Positions 16,356-21,192 of a stretch of DNA of 28,045 bases are shown here, piece after piece. Under the pieces are notes generated by a model. It saw only the letters and a list, made by a program, of their open reading frames with translations. It was not told where the DNA came from and made no database searches. The first letter of the stretch is position 1. Each line of letters begins with the position of its first letter. Source of the DNA: Acidithiobacillus ferruginosus (GTDB lineage Bacteria; Pseudomonadota; Gammaproteobacteria; Acidithiobacillales; Acidithiobacillaceae); assembly GCF_018854495.1 (NCBI RefSeq), contig NZ_JABBDR010000044.1:1-28045 (forward strand). The letters run 5' to 3'. The position numbers were made by a program, and so were the translations under genes.

Positions 16356-16787
16356 ATGGAATCGCCACACCTGATTTTTCTGAGAAACGCAGTGAGCGGC
16401 CAGACCGTTCCGGTCGTGCCGTTACGCGATGCGCTGCACCGTCTCGATCATATGCTGACCGGTTTGGCTGGCGATCTGCATATCCCCTATGCAGGCCCTT
16501 ACGTCGGTCTGGGACAAATGACCCGGCAACACCAGTTGTGCATTGCCGAGCATCAGTGGTCGGCGCAGGAGCGCGGCTGGGGTGTCGCCATCTGCGTTAG
16601 CCACCCCGTTCACGGTTGGCGCGCAGAATGGCGGCTGGCCACGGTAAGCCGCGAACGCCTCCCGCTCATCGTACAGGCTTTGCCTGCGCTGTTCGCCGGC
16701 TACGCGGCGGCTGCGGACGCCTCCCCGGCGGCGCAGCGTCCCAGCACGAAGCGCATCCATGAAATTGCCGGGATCTTCGCGCATTGA
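16356..16787 (+). CDS. Unknown soluble protein
   Basis: This is a 143-residue protein that I do not recognise. It begins at ATG 16356 with an excellent AAAGGAGG site and a good promoter, so it is a real gene. The central part is rich in His, Trp and Gln (residues 55-95: MTRQHQLCIAEHQWSAQERGWG at 55-76, and VHGWRAEWRL). There is a single cysteine near residue 62, and there is no signal peptide or membrane segment. The C-terminus ends in a helical stretch after an Ala/Pro-rich hinge. It stops 82 bases before the FimV-like gene of the GTPase cluster, whose candidate -35 overlaps this stop codon, so it may be an accessory member of that cluster or an independent gene. Confidence 0.75.
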   Translation: MESPHLIFLRNAVSGQTVPVVPLRDALHRLDHMLTGLAGDLHIPYAGPYVGLGQMTRQHQLCIAEHQWSAQERGWGVAICVSHPVHGWRAEWRLATVSRERLPLIVQALPALFAGYAAAADASPAAQRPSTKRIHEIAGIFAH

Positions 16788-16869: not shown

Positions 16870-18342
16870 ATGGAATTACCCACCGGCAGCCTGATTATCA
16901 TAGCCTTTCTTGTAACCCTGGTGGTGCTGACCGGGGTATGGAAGGCGTCACGCGGACGGAAACCTCTCAAGGCCCCAGGTTTGCAGCGCGAGGGCAGCGG
17001 AAGTCCGGCACCGGCGGCATCCCCTGTCAAAAGCAGCCAGGCCAGCACCGTAACAGCGGCATCCCCCGTGCAGGTCGACGAAATCAGCATTCTGGACGAG
17101 GTGGACATTTATCTTTCCTACGGCCACCTGGAACAGGCTGCCACATCCCTCAGCTGGTACGTGGATCATAATCCCGACAACGCCCAGCAGACGCGCAGGC
17201 TCCTCGCGATCTATCGTGAAATACCGGATATCGATCACTTTGCTGAACGGTTGGAACAACTCACCGAGTCGCACACCATTCCCGATGCGGAAGCCAGGGA
17301 TCTCGTTTTGCAGGGACTGAAACTAGATCCGCAGAACCTACAACTACGGGTAACCGCAGAGAATTTGGGGATGAGCAGCGCGCAGATCGCGGCTGTCCTC
17401 GCGCATGCCACCCTTGCGCCACAACCGGCGGAGTCTTCTGCGCTCGCCGGCGCACAGAGGGAGTTGCAGCAAGCCATCGTCAACCCGGAACCACTGGATC
17501 TGTCCGGATTCATGCCTAGACCGGAGATGCTATCGGCCGGGGTATCCCAAAATGGTCCTACAGGGGAGGGCCTCCTACTGCTAACCGGGCCCGATGACAT
17601 TCTGCCGCTGGACGAGGAGGAATATGAGGTAGTAGCCAGCCTGGTTTCGCCGCTCCTTGCCGCACGCCATCTGCTGGCGTGTCGCCAATATCCTGAGGCC
17701 GAGCGGCTGTTACGTCGCCAACTCATTCTCGATCCCCGCAAGCTCATTCTCCATGTCACCCTGCTGGAACTACTGTACGACCAGCGGCGCTGTGCCGCCT
17801 ATGCCGAATCCCTCCTGCAGCTCTATATCACCCTGTGGGGCGCTGGTGGCGATCTGCGAACGCGATTGCTGCAACAAGGCCGGCGACTGGGTGAACACAA
17901 CCTCTGGGTAGCCCTTGCCGGAAGCGATGGAAAGGAGCAGCTTCTCGCAGGGCTGGCCGAGAAATACGGGCTGTATCTGCCGATCACCGCCATACCACTG
18001 AGCAACCCCCCACTGGTGACGGAAGAAATTCACCGTGATCACCGGATTACCGGGAAGGACAGCGAGGATAGCATTATTGAGGAGTTCAACATGCTTCTGG
18101 ACTACGGGCAGGTGAACGAGGCGGTGGACCTTCTGGAGAAGGCCATATTGGCGCAACCTCGGCATGACGTTTACTACGGACCGCTTCTCGAAATGTACGA
18201 ACGGATGGACGCCCGCGAGCGATTTTCCCATTTCGTCAAATCCATTCTCACGACGGACATGCAGCCCAGTGAAGATATCATGCGCCAGATGTTCAGCCTG
18301 ACTGAACGCCTCCAGCGTTACCCGCAACGACAGATCATTTAG
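16870..18342 (+). CDS. Membrane-anchored FimV/TPR-like protein
   Basis: This 490-residue protein has one N-terminal membrane segment (about 7-24), a Ser/Pro/Ala linker (30-68) and a large cytoplasmic part with helical repeats. Residues 76-133 (DEVDIYLSYGHLEQAATSL at 76-94, then an xLLAIYRE block and an FAERLEQL block) closely resemble the C-terminal FimV domain that recruits polar proteins in Pseudomonas and Vibrio. Similar repeat units recur at about 262-322 and 405-460. Between them lies an acidic, low-complexity region (180-250). There is no LysM domain, so it is not a full FimV. It begins the five-gene GTPase cluster, 9 bases before the receiver-like gene. Likely a scaffold that localises the GTPase system (inference). 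Confidence 0.8.
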   Translation: MELPTGSLIIIAFLVTLVVLTGVWKASRGRKPLKAPGLQREGSGSPAPAASPVKSSQASTVTAASPVQVDEISILDEVDIYLSYGHLEQAATSLSWYVDHNPDNAQQTRRLLAIYREIPDIDHFAERLEQLTESHTIPDAEARDLVLQGLKLDPQNLQLRVTAENLGMSSAQIAAVLAHATLAPQPAESSALAGAQRELQQAIVNPEPLDLSGFMPRPEMLSAGVSQNGPTGEGLLLLTGPDDILPLDEEEYEVVASLVSPLLAARHLLACRQYPEAERLLRRQLILDPRKLILHVTLLELLYDQRRCAAYAESLLQLYITLWGAGGDLRTRLLQQGRRLGEHNLWVALAGSDGKEQLLAGLAEKYGLYLPITAIPLSNPPLVTEEIHRDHRITGKDSEDSIIEEFNMLLDYGQVNEAVDLLEKAILAQPRHDVYYGPLLEMYERMDARERFSHFVKSILTTDMQPSEDIMRQMFSLTERLQRYPQRQII

Positions 18343-18351
18343 GATTTGATC

Positions 18352-19521
18352 ATGACGACAAACCCCTCCAACGGCGGTAGTATCCTCGTCCGCAGCATCG
18401 GGATGGATGCACGCAAAGAAGCCGTCTTCCGCATGGCTTTCAAGATGTTTACCCGGCGGCATTATCAGTTGCTGGACGCTGGGGACGCGCAAACGCCCGC
18501 AGTGATCATTATCGATGTGGATGGTAGGGACGGTATGACCATCGCGCGGCGGTTGCATGAAGAACAGCCGGAACAACGTATCCTGCTGACAAGCGTTTCC
18601 GCGCACCCTGACAGCATTTTCCCGGTACTGCAGAAACCCATACGGATGGAAACCCTCTTCCCCGCACTGGAGCTTCTGCTGAATGGTAGCCCCGCTCCGG
18701 CAAAGTCGGCAGAAAGGAGTAGCGCGACAGTCATGCCCATCCGGCCCGACGTCGCGATCTCTTCGCCATTCGCTTCCGTTGCGGCACCGCCTGCGACCAA
18801 CCCAGCGTCGGCCCCTGCTCCCAAACCTGTCGCACCGCCAGCCGTCGCACCACGCCCGACACCCCTGCTACGCCCTGAAGACGTACGTCATTTCAATCCT
18901 CAGGCTGGACTGCTGGGACTTTTGCAGATCGTCCGCCGCGACCAGTCGCCAGCCATCATCGTGGACGACCGGCAGCAGGTTATTCTGCGCTTGGACCCGG
19001 TGGCAGATCAGGCCATTCTGCTGACGGACGACGCAACCCTCAAGTCCCTGGCGCAGGAGGAGCACCCACGGCTGCAAATGCGCGCCCCCGCTGACACGGA
19101 CATCCCTGCCCATGCCTCTGTACGGCATCTCACCCTTCCATCCCTGCTCTGGCAAGTAGGTGCGTGGACTGCAGACGGGCGCCTCATTCAGCAACTGCAG
19201 ATCAACGCCCCAGTCCAACTGAAGCAATGGCCCAACCTCACGCGCCTGACCATGTTGCCTGACGCCCTGCGCCTGGCGGCGTTTCTGGCCCGTTCTCCGG
19301 CGTCTCCGGCATTGACGGTGAAGATGTTGCGCGTCGCGCCCTCCGACCTCTTCAACTTTCTTGCGGCCGCAGACAGCCTGGGGTTGTTGCGCTATAACAC
19401 GGCGGAAAACCCTGACAACCGCATCCAGCCTGCGTCCGCGAACGCGCCGGAGGCCGCGGAAATACCGGCAGCGAAACGGAGCTTCCTGGGCCGCCTCCTT
19501 GCCCGCATTGCGGGGCTGTAA
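18352..19521 (+). CDS. Pseudo-receiver protein with Pro-rich linker and amphipathic C-terminus
   Basis: This 389-residue protein belongs to no family I can name with certainty. Residues 9-110 look like a response-regulator receiver: a hydrophobic strand with D55 (VIIIDVDG), a T80-S81 pair and K95 before Pro (LQKPIRMETL). The acidic pair normally after strand 1 is lacking, so phosphorylation is doubtful. A long Pro/Ala linker (113-170) follows, then a beta-rich domain (about 175-290) and a winged-helix-like helical part (303-347). The tail AAKRSFLGRLLARIAGL is a basic amphipathic helix that could bind membrane. I take ATG 18352; a TTG two codons upstream is possible. It is 9 bases after the FimV-like gene and 56 before the GTPase. 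Confidence 0.75.
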   Translation: MTTNPSNGGSILVRSIGMDARKEAVFRMAFKMFTRRHYQLLDAGDAQTPAVIIIDVDGRDGMTIARRLHEEQPEQRILLTSVSAHPDSIFPVLQKPIRMETLFPALELLLNGSPAPAKSAERSSATVMPIRPDVAISSPFASVAAPPATNPASAPAPKPVAPPAVAPRPTPLLRPEDVRHFNPQAGLLGLLQIVRRDQSPAIIVDDRQQVILRLDPVADQAILLTDDATLKSLAQEEHPRLQMRAPADTDIPAHASVRHLTLPSLLWQVGAWTADGRLIQQLQINAPVQLKQWPNLTRLTMLPDALRLAAFLARSPASPALTVKMLRVAPSDLFNFLAAADSLGLLRYNTAENPDNRIQPASANAPEAAEIPAAKRSFLGRLLARIAGL

Positions 19522-19577
19522 GACGCGACCGGGATTTTTCTCCGGTAAAGATCAAAAGATCATATGTAAGGAGCCGT

Positions 19578-20147
19578 GTGGTGAGAGAAGACAATAAAAT
19601 CATTTTTACCGGTCCTGTTGGCGTAGGCAAAACAACGGCTATTGCGGCATTGTCGGATATTCCGATCATCTCCACCGATGCCCAGGCCTCGGATATGACA
19701 CTGAATCGCAAGGGCCACACCACCGTCGCGATGGATTACGGCGTGTTGAAGCTGGATGAGGGTACCAAAATTCATCTGTACGGCACTCCAGGCCAGGAAC
19801 GTTTCGACTTCATGTGGGATATCCTCACCACCGGCGGCCTGGGCCTCATTCTGATGCTCGACAACACCCGCCCCAACCCCAAAAAAGACCTGCATTTTTT
19901 TCTTCATGCCTTCAAGGACTTCATTGTCGATGTCCCCGTCGTCATCGGGGTTTCGAAGACGGATATCCAGACCCAGCCCCAGATAGCCGACTACGTCGAC
20001 ATGCTCCCGGAGGCGACTGCGGACCTGCGGATGCTCAATCCCATTCCGCCAATTTTTGAAGTGGATGGCCGCAACAAGGACGACGTAAAGAATCTGGTCA
20101 TGGCGTTGCTTTACTCCATTGATCCGGGCATCGGGGATCAGTTATGA
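19578..20147 (+). CDS. Ras-like small GTPase (Srp-beta/MglA-like, COG2229 type)
   Basis: This 189-residue GTPase resembles bacterial MglA/COG2229 proteins. The P-loop is GPVGVGKT (12-19), switch I holds the T48-T49 pair, switch II is GTPGQE (69-74) with the Ras-type Gln, and the guanine-specificity motif is SKTD (126-129) in place of NKxD. There is no membrane anchor. The start is GTG 19578 or GTG 19581; AAGGAG (19568-19573) gives better spacing to 19581. The gene overlaps the next one by 4 bases (ATGA), and a roadblock/LC7 gene follows, the usual GAP or effector partner in bacteria. A nucleotide-dependent spatial switch is the family-based expectation; its target is unknown. Confidence 0.92.
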   Translation: MVREDNKIIFTGPVGVGKTTAIAALSDIPIISTDAQASDMTLNRKGHTTVAMDYGVLKLDEGTKIHLYGTPGQERFDFMWDILTTGGLGLILMLDNTRPNPKKDLHFFLHAFKDFIVDVPVVIGVSKTDIQTQPQIADYVDMLPEATADLRMLNPIPPIFEVDGRNKDDVKNLVMALLYSIDPGIGDQL

Positions 20148-20782
20148 GTATCGAACTGGTCGCCACGAACGCGGATATTTACGGTGAGGTGACACCCGCC
20201 GGGGCTTTTTATGCCACATCCAGTCCGCATCAGGACGAAAACCGGACCACCCTCCTCCACATTTTACGGCAAGGACACCGGGCTCCCTTCAGCGCCAGCA
20301 CCGCACAGCACTGGACTCAGGCGGCGAGTGAAGAGGAAGCCCTGCGCAGCATTTTCCGCCTGCAGCGTCTGGGCATGTTGCGGGGCACGGCACGGCCGCG
20401 CCAACGGGAGGAACAGCGGCTGGAAGACGCCTTGCCGCCTCTCCTCGCGCAACTTTCGGATATACAGAAAACCCTCCTCGCCGATGAAAACGGCTTTTAT
20501 CTCGCGGCATCGGGCTACACCCATGAAGCCGCAGAAGAACTGGCCGGGCTTTCGGCCGATCTGCTGTCCCTGCAGTCCAGGCACGACCGTCTGCTGAAAA
20601 ACAACCTCCGCGTCAACACTGAAACCTGGGGTTTGATCGATCCGGCGGGGCGCTCCGAACTGGGATTCTGGCCGTTATTTATCGGTCAGCAACATTTCAT
20701 GCTCGTCATCAGCGGTACGCCTCGCCTGCAGGATCAATCCTTCGTTACACTAGTGCAGGACCTGGACACACGTTACCGCTAA
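20144..20782 (+). CDS. Unknown protein with possible winged-helix and roadblock-like domains
   Basis: This 212-residue protein is translationally coupled to the GTPase (ATGA overlap). The N-terminal third (about 30-85) is helical, with a winged-helix-like end (LRSIFRLQRLGMLRG). The C-terminal part (about 100-212) has a strand-turn-strand LLADENGFYLAASG followed by a long helix and further strands ending in FMLVISG and a terminal helix. That pattern is what a diverged roadblock/LC7 fold shows, but the sequence match is weak. No catalytic motif is visible. It is probably a GTPase partner or regulator (inference from coupling and neighbours). The start ATG 20144 needs no separate ribosome site. 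Confidence 0.75.
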   Translation: MSIELVATNADIYGEVTPAGAFYATSSPHQDENRTTLLHILRQGHRAPFSASTAQHWTQAASEEEALRSIFRLQRLGMLRGTARPRQREEQRLEDALPPLLAQLSDIQKTLLADENGFYLAASGYTHEAAEELAGLSADLLSLQSRHDRLLKNNLRVNTETWGLIDPAGRSELGFWPLFIGQQHFMLVISGTPRLQDQSFVTLVQDLDTRYR

Positions 20783-20829
20783 AACAACCTCTTTTTCACA
20801 AACCCCGATTCTAATTCAGGAGAACAAAA

Positions 20830-21192
20830 ATGCGTGAAGAAATGCTCAAATCCATCCTCAGTGACCTGAACGGGTCTTCTGCGGACATCGAGGCCTCAGC
20901 CGTGATTTCCACCGACGGCCTCACCATCGCCTCACTGCTTTCTTCGACCATGGACGAGGACCGGGTAGGGGCCATGGCGGCGGCGATGCTTTCCCTGGGC
21001 GACCGCACCGCCGTAGAGCTGGCGCGGGGTGAACTGGAGCAGGTCATGATCAAGGGCGATAACGGCTACGTTCTGCTCATTCATGCCGGCCCGGATGCGG
21101 TCCTCACGGTCATCGCCCGAAAGGAGGCGAAGCTTGGGCTGGTCTTTCTCGACGCCAAGCGGGGAGCTGCGGGGATCGCCGAGCTGCTTTGA
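20830..21192 (+). CDS. Roadblock/LC7 domain protein (MglB-like)
   Basis: This is a 120-residue single-domain roadblock/LC7 protein. Bacterial members such as MglB act as GTPase-activating or co-regulatory partners of Ras-like GTPases. The family hallmarks are clear: an N-terminal helix, ASAVISTDGLTIAS (22-35) as the first strand-turn-strand, VGAMAAAMLSLGDRTA (46-61) as the long helix, then VMIKGDNGYVLLIHAGPDAVLTVIA strands (72-96) and a closing helix. The start ATG 20830 has an AGGAG site. It is 47 bases after the preceding gene and closes the cluster that starts at 16870. It probably dimerises and binds the GTPase. Confidence 0.93.
   Translation: MREEMLKSILSDLNGSSADIEASAVISTDGLTIASLLSSTMDEDRVGAMAAAMLSLGDRTAVELARGELEQVMIKGDNGYVLLIHAGPDAVLTVIARKEAKLGLVFLDAKRGAAGIAELL

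Follow-up and report, generated by a model that had tools for sequence, protein, structure and literature searches.

The stretch analyzed here, hereafter the window, covers positions 1–28,045 of contig NZ_JABBDR010000044.1 of Acidithiobacillus ferruginosus, a sulfur/iron-oxidizing bacterium (assembly GCF_018854495.1); the contig is labeled C249 in a genome of 3.0 Mb and 309 contigs. It carries a cluster of five genes built around a small GTPase of the MglA type. A preliminary description of the window had reported five collinear genes, and these are real. All five open reading frames (ORFs) are on the + strand and are separated, in order, by 3 or 9 nt (depending on the start of the second gene), 56, −4, and 47 nt:

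16870..18342, + strand: FimVL, predicted membrane-anchored tetratricopeptide repeat (TPR) protein of 490 amino acids
18346..19521, + strand: RecL, receiver-like protein; likely start at ATG 18352
19578..20147, + strand: small GTPase of 189 amino acids, putative Group 3 MglA
20144..20782, + strand: RobN, roadblock protein of 212 amino acids with a winged-helix-like N-terminal domain
20830..21192, + strand: Rob, canonical MglB-type roadblock/LC7 protein of 120 amino acids (Pfam match)

Products of the five genes

The GTPase shares 94–99% identity with its counterparts in eight close relatives included in the genome survey, and 93% with the one from Acidithiobacillus ferriphilus. Its motifs were compared across 91 loci. 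The G3 motif is GTPGQ in all of them (91/91), while in G2 a Thr replaces the Arg finger of Group 1, and the eight variants listed, which account for 73/91 loci, all read TTVA(M/L)DYG. The G5 motif follows the pattern (V/I)D(A/G)R in 85/91 loci (VDAR in 52, VDGR in 15, IDAR in 15, and IDGR in three), with VDGR in the window. The G4 motif, which in Group 3 frequently has no Lys, is TQMD in 30 loci, TRMD in 16, and SKTD in 11, and the SKTD of the window retains the Lys. Judged by G2, G3, and G5 and by the gene neighborhood, the protein can be assigned to Group 3 MglA. A separate observation concerns two loci in which a kinase-GTPase fusion occupies the same gene position, with a Pkinase domain ahead of the GTPase (L048:1596-3089, 130.7 bits, and L122:7044-8546, 122.6 bits).

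The preliminary description had paired this GTPase with two roadblock partners, which agrees with its motifs and with the analysis of the two downstream genes. The predicted structure of RobN confirms a roadblock fold, with a predicted winged-helix-like domain at the N-terminus. Rob, beyond its Pfam match, resembles CvnB5 (3leq; E 1.4e-11). D29-G30 and R45 are near-invariant in Rob, and R45, which lies in the DRVGAM motif (window:20962-20964, + strand), is present in at least 97% of 89 sequences. The 2014 survey of these systems (PMC4316618) describes, in its main text, scant conservation of such MglB proteins besides the Asp-Gly pair; R45, being near-invariant, is thus a candidate for a residue that reaches the GTPase in trans.

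RecL begins with a degenerate receiver domain (about residues 10–112), followed by a disordered linker and by an unnamed alpha/beta domain (176–290); the model then places a winged-helix-like part at 305–348 and a basic C-terminal helix at 378–386. The receiver fold, which the preliminary description had proposed for an adaptor protein, is seen in the predicted structure, and the lists of PDB folds matching the model are filled by receivers. The Asp, Ser/Thr, and Lys residues are kept and the acidic pair is missing. In the fold search against viral proteins, four rows had a probability of about 1 and E<0.01, namely three named histidine kinases and EsV-1-186, and the others were weak. The winged-helix part shows no homology to the N-terminus of RobN (hhalign probability 0.3, E 0.21). 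A PATAN domain (DUF4388, PF14332) had been considered for RecL from its secondary structure and from comparison with PixE/PilB1, and this idea was left without Pfam support: no match was obtained at E≤0.01, nor among the best 25 of 32 families at E≤10. In the class sample, PF14332 was matched in 1/143, below the cut-off.

FimVL has a hydrophobic N-terminal membrane segment (about 5–24), a FimV-like TPR region (about 71–176), and a second TPR half (about 255–460), and its Pfam TPR matches are weak. The TPR region is related to that of FimV, as shown by BLASTP against the FimV of the same genome (2e-8) and by hhalign against the FimV TPR region (probability 97.4, E 1.2e-11, with a single sequence on the FimV side). 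Indeed, when the FimVL profile was run against the whole genome, the only matches at E≤1 were FimVL itself, one paralogue, and FimV; against PDB sequences it matched designed TPRs, LapB, and HsiE1 only. The order of a membrane segment and then a related TPR region is shared with FimV/HubP. Unlike these, FimVL has no LysM match and matches neither FimV_core nor FimV_Cterm at E≤0.1, while the true FimV of the genome, on contig C120, exceeds the cut-off for both. FimVL is therefore a relative of FimV and not a member of the family, and the possibility that it is the FimV of the organism was rejected. Of the FimV-like first gene of the preliminary description, the related TPR region stands and the identity with FimV does not.

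The proposal that FimVL is a membrane hub can apply to part of the family only. Of the 80 named loci considered below, 21 encode a FimVL whose N-terminal membrane segment has a score above 1.6. In gamma-Proteobacteria, however, FimVL is about 220–305 amino acids long, lacks the segment, and aligns with the C-terminal half of the profile (about positions 291–470 of 505; medians, 47 loci). Membrane anchor and initial FimV-like TPR block are thus features of the Acidithiobacillia and beta-proteobacterial forms.

Conservation of the gene set and its surroundings

The complete, syntenic five-gene set was found in 11/11 loci fetched from the genus, family, and order (L037–L047). More broadly, the 80 named loci, which are the closest of at least 593 GTPase matches, contain the five families in this order in 73 cases; the order script flags 71, with L076 and L114 misflagged through the choice of an overlong ORF. 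At L084, L108, L119, L121, and L125 the contig starts inside the cluster and the position of FimVL falls off it, at L120 the contig ends past the GTPase, and at L127 the upstream sequence is different and the set incomplete. The single module of the preliminary description is therefore conserved well beyond close relatives. A hidden Markov model built from Acidithiobacillia FimVL alone retrieved the same ORF as best match in 72/80 loci (71 at E<1e-3), and the detection of FimVL is thus independent of iteration. Group 3 MglA systems were found in Neisseriales, methanotrophs, Thiothrix relatives, Acidithiobacillia, and others. A draw of 369 genomes from the class included 68 with a GTPase match (E≤0.001) and 40 with a RobN match (E≤1e-6), and RobN directly adjoins the GTPase match in 30 of these 40, as counted from coordinates.

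Relatives also carry a second, more distant GTPase. A FimVL paralogue adjoins it on the same strand in 7/16 of their loci (L052, L158, and L161–L165), with no roadblock or RecL match nearby. This suggests that, where the pair occurs, FimVL is tied to the GTPase and not to the roadblocks. The A. ferruginosus genome has a FimVL paralogue too (L150), with no GTPase match in the stretch fetched around it.

Directly upstream of FimVL lies an ORF whose membership in the module is uncertain. It is present in 14/99 loci (60% coverage), every one from Acidithiobacillia. Beyond it is a divergent gene of the L,D-transpeptidase type (Pfam YkuD), and downstream of Rob are glyQ and glyS; the names glyQ, glyS, and lipA were read from the sequence by eye. 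A promoter scan was uninformative. Other features mentioned in this and the next section are the following:

16356..16787, + strand: up143, the unnamed 143-amino-acid ORF upstream of FimVL, no Pfam match
L079:9594-10897 and L085:9724-10932, and relatives: examples of PAS or phosphonate-binding-type neighbors
L035:836-1186 (contig C243): solitary roadblock gene of the A. ferruginosus genome (Pfam)
L036:5080-5502 (contig C106): solitary roadblock gene of the A. ferruginosus genome (Pfam)

In other lineages the cluster has different neighbors. An ODP-family gene lies 2–72 nt upstream of FimVL on the same strand in 11/80 loci (L059, L061–L067, and L076–L078, with L064 tested by Pfam); ODP proteins bind oxygen. 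In gamma-proteobacterial loci, a PAS protein (40/80) and a phosphonate-binding-type protein (42/80) occur in the vicinity, in most cases as the next genes after Rob. Bactofilin genes precede the cluster in 13 loci (L085:4844-5206 was tested by Pfam, 84 bits), on the same strand and within 60 nt in three of them (L095, L114, and L117). The gene downstream of the cluster in L085 has a FimV_Cterm match of 41.6 bits, and relatives of this gene occur in seven loci in all.

Known systems and the probable link to type IV pili

The preliminary description regarded the set as undescribed, and this did not hold, as four of the five genes correspond to a published system. In the main text of their survey, Wuichet and Sogaard-Andersen (2014, PMC4316618) describe a Group 3 MglA system of beta- and gamma-Proteobacteria formed by a receiver/winged-helix protein of unknown kind, MglA, and one or two MglB. 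The cluster has the same receiver and winged-helix protein, GTPGQ GTPase, and one or two MglB, occurs in the same bacterial groups, and shares the G2, G3, and G5 motifs. It differs in the TPR/FimV-like gene, which that text does not name and which the cluster and 73/80 loci add. Indeed, the terms TPR, tetratricopeptide, and FimV are absent from the main texts of PMC4316618 and of a 2024 study of Snodgrassella (PMC11112851), and "receiver" is absent from the main text of the latter. Judged on sequence, the cluster is the known Group 3 MglA system with a constant fifth gene, FimVL, unnamed in those texts and here in a putative membrane-anchored variant.

The Snodgrassella study was the only functional work on Group 3 MglA found by our literature search. 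According to its main text, a missense change in an orphan mglB, in a bacterium bearing Group 3 mglA, altered both competition in the gut and the spread of colonies on soft agar. The gene content there is similar, as the Group 3 mglA is coupled to two mglB genes and an orphan mglB exists besides; A. ferruginosus has two coupled roadblocks and two elsewhere, one of the latter 46% identical to Rob. The mutation, however, lay in the orphan gene and not in a coupled one. As an observation on the solitary genes, the roadblock on C243 is divergent and lies about 2.4 kb from genes that resemble, by eye, a pilus platform protein, minor pilins, and a PilY1-like protein. The search returned no paper joining FimV and roadblock, which is a weak negative as subscription papers were mostly uncovered, and, with the same coverage, none on Acidithiobacillus, roadblock, and GTPase; PMC5595344 mentions MglA in its discussion only.

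A functional parallel is offered by Myxococcus, where a GTPase, roadblocks, a TPR effector, and a pseudo-receiver (MglA, MglB/MglC, SgmX, and FrzS) act on type IV pili, as described in the main texts of PMC7519303 and PMC11580455. There, MglA-GTP interacts with SgmX, a TPR protein on which the polar position of PilB depends, and MglB clears MglA-GTP from the opposite pole (PMC7519303); the pseudo-receiver of FrzS binds SgmX (PMC11580455). The cluster has one gene per Myxococcus role. The differences are that in Myxococcus the partner genes do not adjoin mglA and the GTPase belongs to Group 1, with an intrinsic Arg finger (PMC4316618), and that SgmX has 14 TPRs and FrzS a coiled coil (PMC11580455), with no membrane segment described for SgmX (PMC7519303). 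The actinobacterial conservons CvnA-D are likewise operons of a GTPGQ-type GTPase and a roadblock protein (PMC4316618), consistent with the match of Rob to CvnB5, but as described there they include a histidine kinase and CvnC, neither of which is among the five genes.

PilT (E≤1e-95) was found in 309 of the 369 class genomes, specifically in 40/40 with RobN and in 269/329 without it (one-sided Fisher P 5e-4, a test that ignores phylogeny and genome size, with PilT common anyway). Within the genus, the GTPase and PilT are both present in 16/17 genomes. The other one, G001, is listed as 100% complete and has no match to the GTPase, RobN, or PilT, which may reflect a real loss or a gap of its 310-contig assembly. 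The FimV_Cterm-family and bactofilin neighbors in other lineages point toward pili as well. Type IV pili appear to be the likeliest output, on correlative evidence from the present genomes and on analogy with Myxococcus and the one Snodgrassella mutant. In the close relative G011 (G011:C1:1119810-1123454), one of two PilT-family matches covers only model positions 2–247, and the gene may be broken.

Proposed mechanism and alternatives

We consider it reasonably likely that the five genes form a Group 3 MglA module with a constant TPR partner, and that its output is type IV pilus activity or placement. Gene content, conservation, motifs, the predicted folds of RecL and RobN, and the co-occurrence with PilT are results of the analysis, while the binding events, the GTPase-activating action, the localization, and the effect on pili are inferred from them. 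The GTPase would alternate between GTP and GDP forms, and Rob and RobN, as homodimers or as a heterodimer, could provide the platform that controls its nucleotide state, as GTPase-activating protein and/or by exchange. FimVL would be the TPR effector or scaffold, attached to the inner membrane among Acidithiobacillia and their beta-proteobacterial relatives and soluble in gamma-Proteobacteria, and the GTP-form GTPase would bind it, most likely through the conserved C-terminal TPR half. RecL, with its degenerate receiver and winged-helix-like part, may act as a protein-protein adaptor that would link the complex to pili or membrane, and its basic tail may touch the membrane or an acidic partner. 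The resulting control of pili would be akin to that exerted by MglA-GTP, SgmX, and FrzS in Myxococcus. More tentatively, one operon across beta- and gamma-Proteobacteria could bring together counterparts of polarity components that are dispersed in the Myxococcus genome (GTPase, two roadblocks, TPR effector, and degenerate receiver adaptor). It would be a compact, independently assembled G-protein circuit with one constant partner unnamed in the published texts, one that reads oxygen/redox or ligand cues through lineage-specific neighbors (ODP-family, PAS, and phosphonate-binding-type) and sets where and when type IV pili work.

Several observations weigh against the pilus module so conceived. 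G025 (91% complete) has the GTPase and no PilT match, and G027 (69% complete) and G028 (61%) have PilT and no GTPase match. The flanks in the Acidithiobacillus lineage (lipA, ykuD, glyQ, and glyS) are uninformative on pili. L119 has no Rob match though more than 4 kb follow, and genome G039 (L049) lacks FimVL and has its RobN on another contig. Nine of the 16 second-GTPase loci have no FimVL within the roughly 2.5 kb fetched on either side, and L050, L051, L053, and L054 also lack an adjoining one. The conservation count covers the 80 closest loci out of at least 593 GTPase matches, and is less certain for the more distant ones.

A different output would also fit some of these data. The module might position or regulate another envelope or signaling machine, such as the flagellum, secretion, exopolysaccharide, or redox taxis, with pili as a mere correlate. 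The sensor-type genes that adjoin the cluster in other lineages (ODP-family, PAS, and phosphonate-binding-type) agree with this, as does a modest PilT correlation that G025 breaks. The lack of both the cluster and PilT in G001, the FimV-family and bactofilin neighbors, and the colony-spreading phenotype of Snodgrassella (PMC11112851) argue instead for pili, and we regard another machine as unlikely. Transcription control, with RecL and RobN as winged-helix DNA-binding regulators gated by the GTPase, was suggested in the 2014 survey (PMC4316618) owing to the winged helix, and thus counts against the pilus module. Winged-helix-like parts are indeed predicted in both proteins, and weak HTH_20 and MarR_2 matches, each in 3/69 RecL members (best E 0.035 and 0.1, respectively), go in the same direction. 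However, no DNA-binding Pfam family is matched at E<0.01 in RecL or RobN, the N-terminal 88 residues of RobN have an average charge of −3.3, and the presumed recognition helices are near-neutral (mean −0.3 for RecL 330–342, n=69; −0.6 and 0.03 for RobN 51–58 and 63–75, n=58). As these helices are uncharged on average, a transcriptional role is less likely, and we hold it to be quite improbable.

Finally, two modules might lie side by side, with FimVL as a free-standing FimV-like gene that by chance sits ahead of a Group 3 mgl operon of four genes. FimVL is unnamed in the main text of the published description (PMC4316618), is variable in length, lacks the anchor in gamma-Proteobacteria, and is missing in L049, all of which speaks for such an arrangement. 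Nevertheless, over 74 loci FimVL keeps its place immediately before RecL, at a median distance of about 3 nt, and its paralogue pairs with the second GTPase alone in 7/16 relatives, which makes a chance neighborhood very improbable.

Coming back to the Group 3 MglA module with a constant TPR partner, FimVL offers a concrete candidate effector for Group 3 MglA, and the joint absence of the cluster and PilT in one genome points to an output that can be tested. If this reading is true, control of pili by small GTPases would be much more widespread among Proteobacteria than one would expect from Myxococcus.

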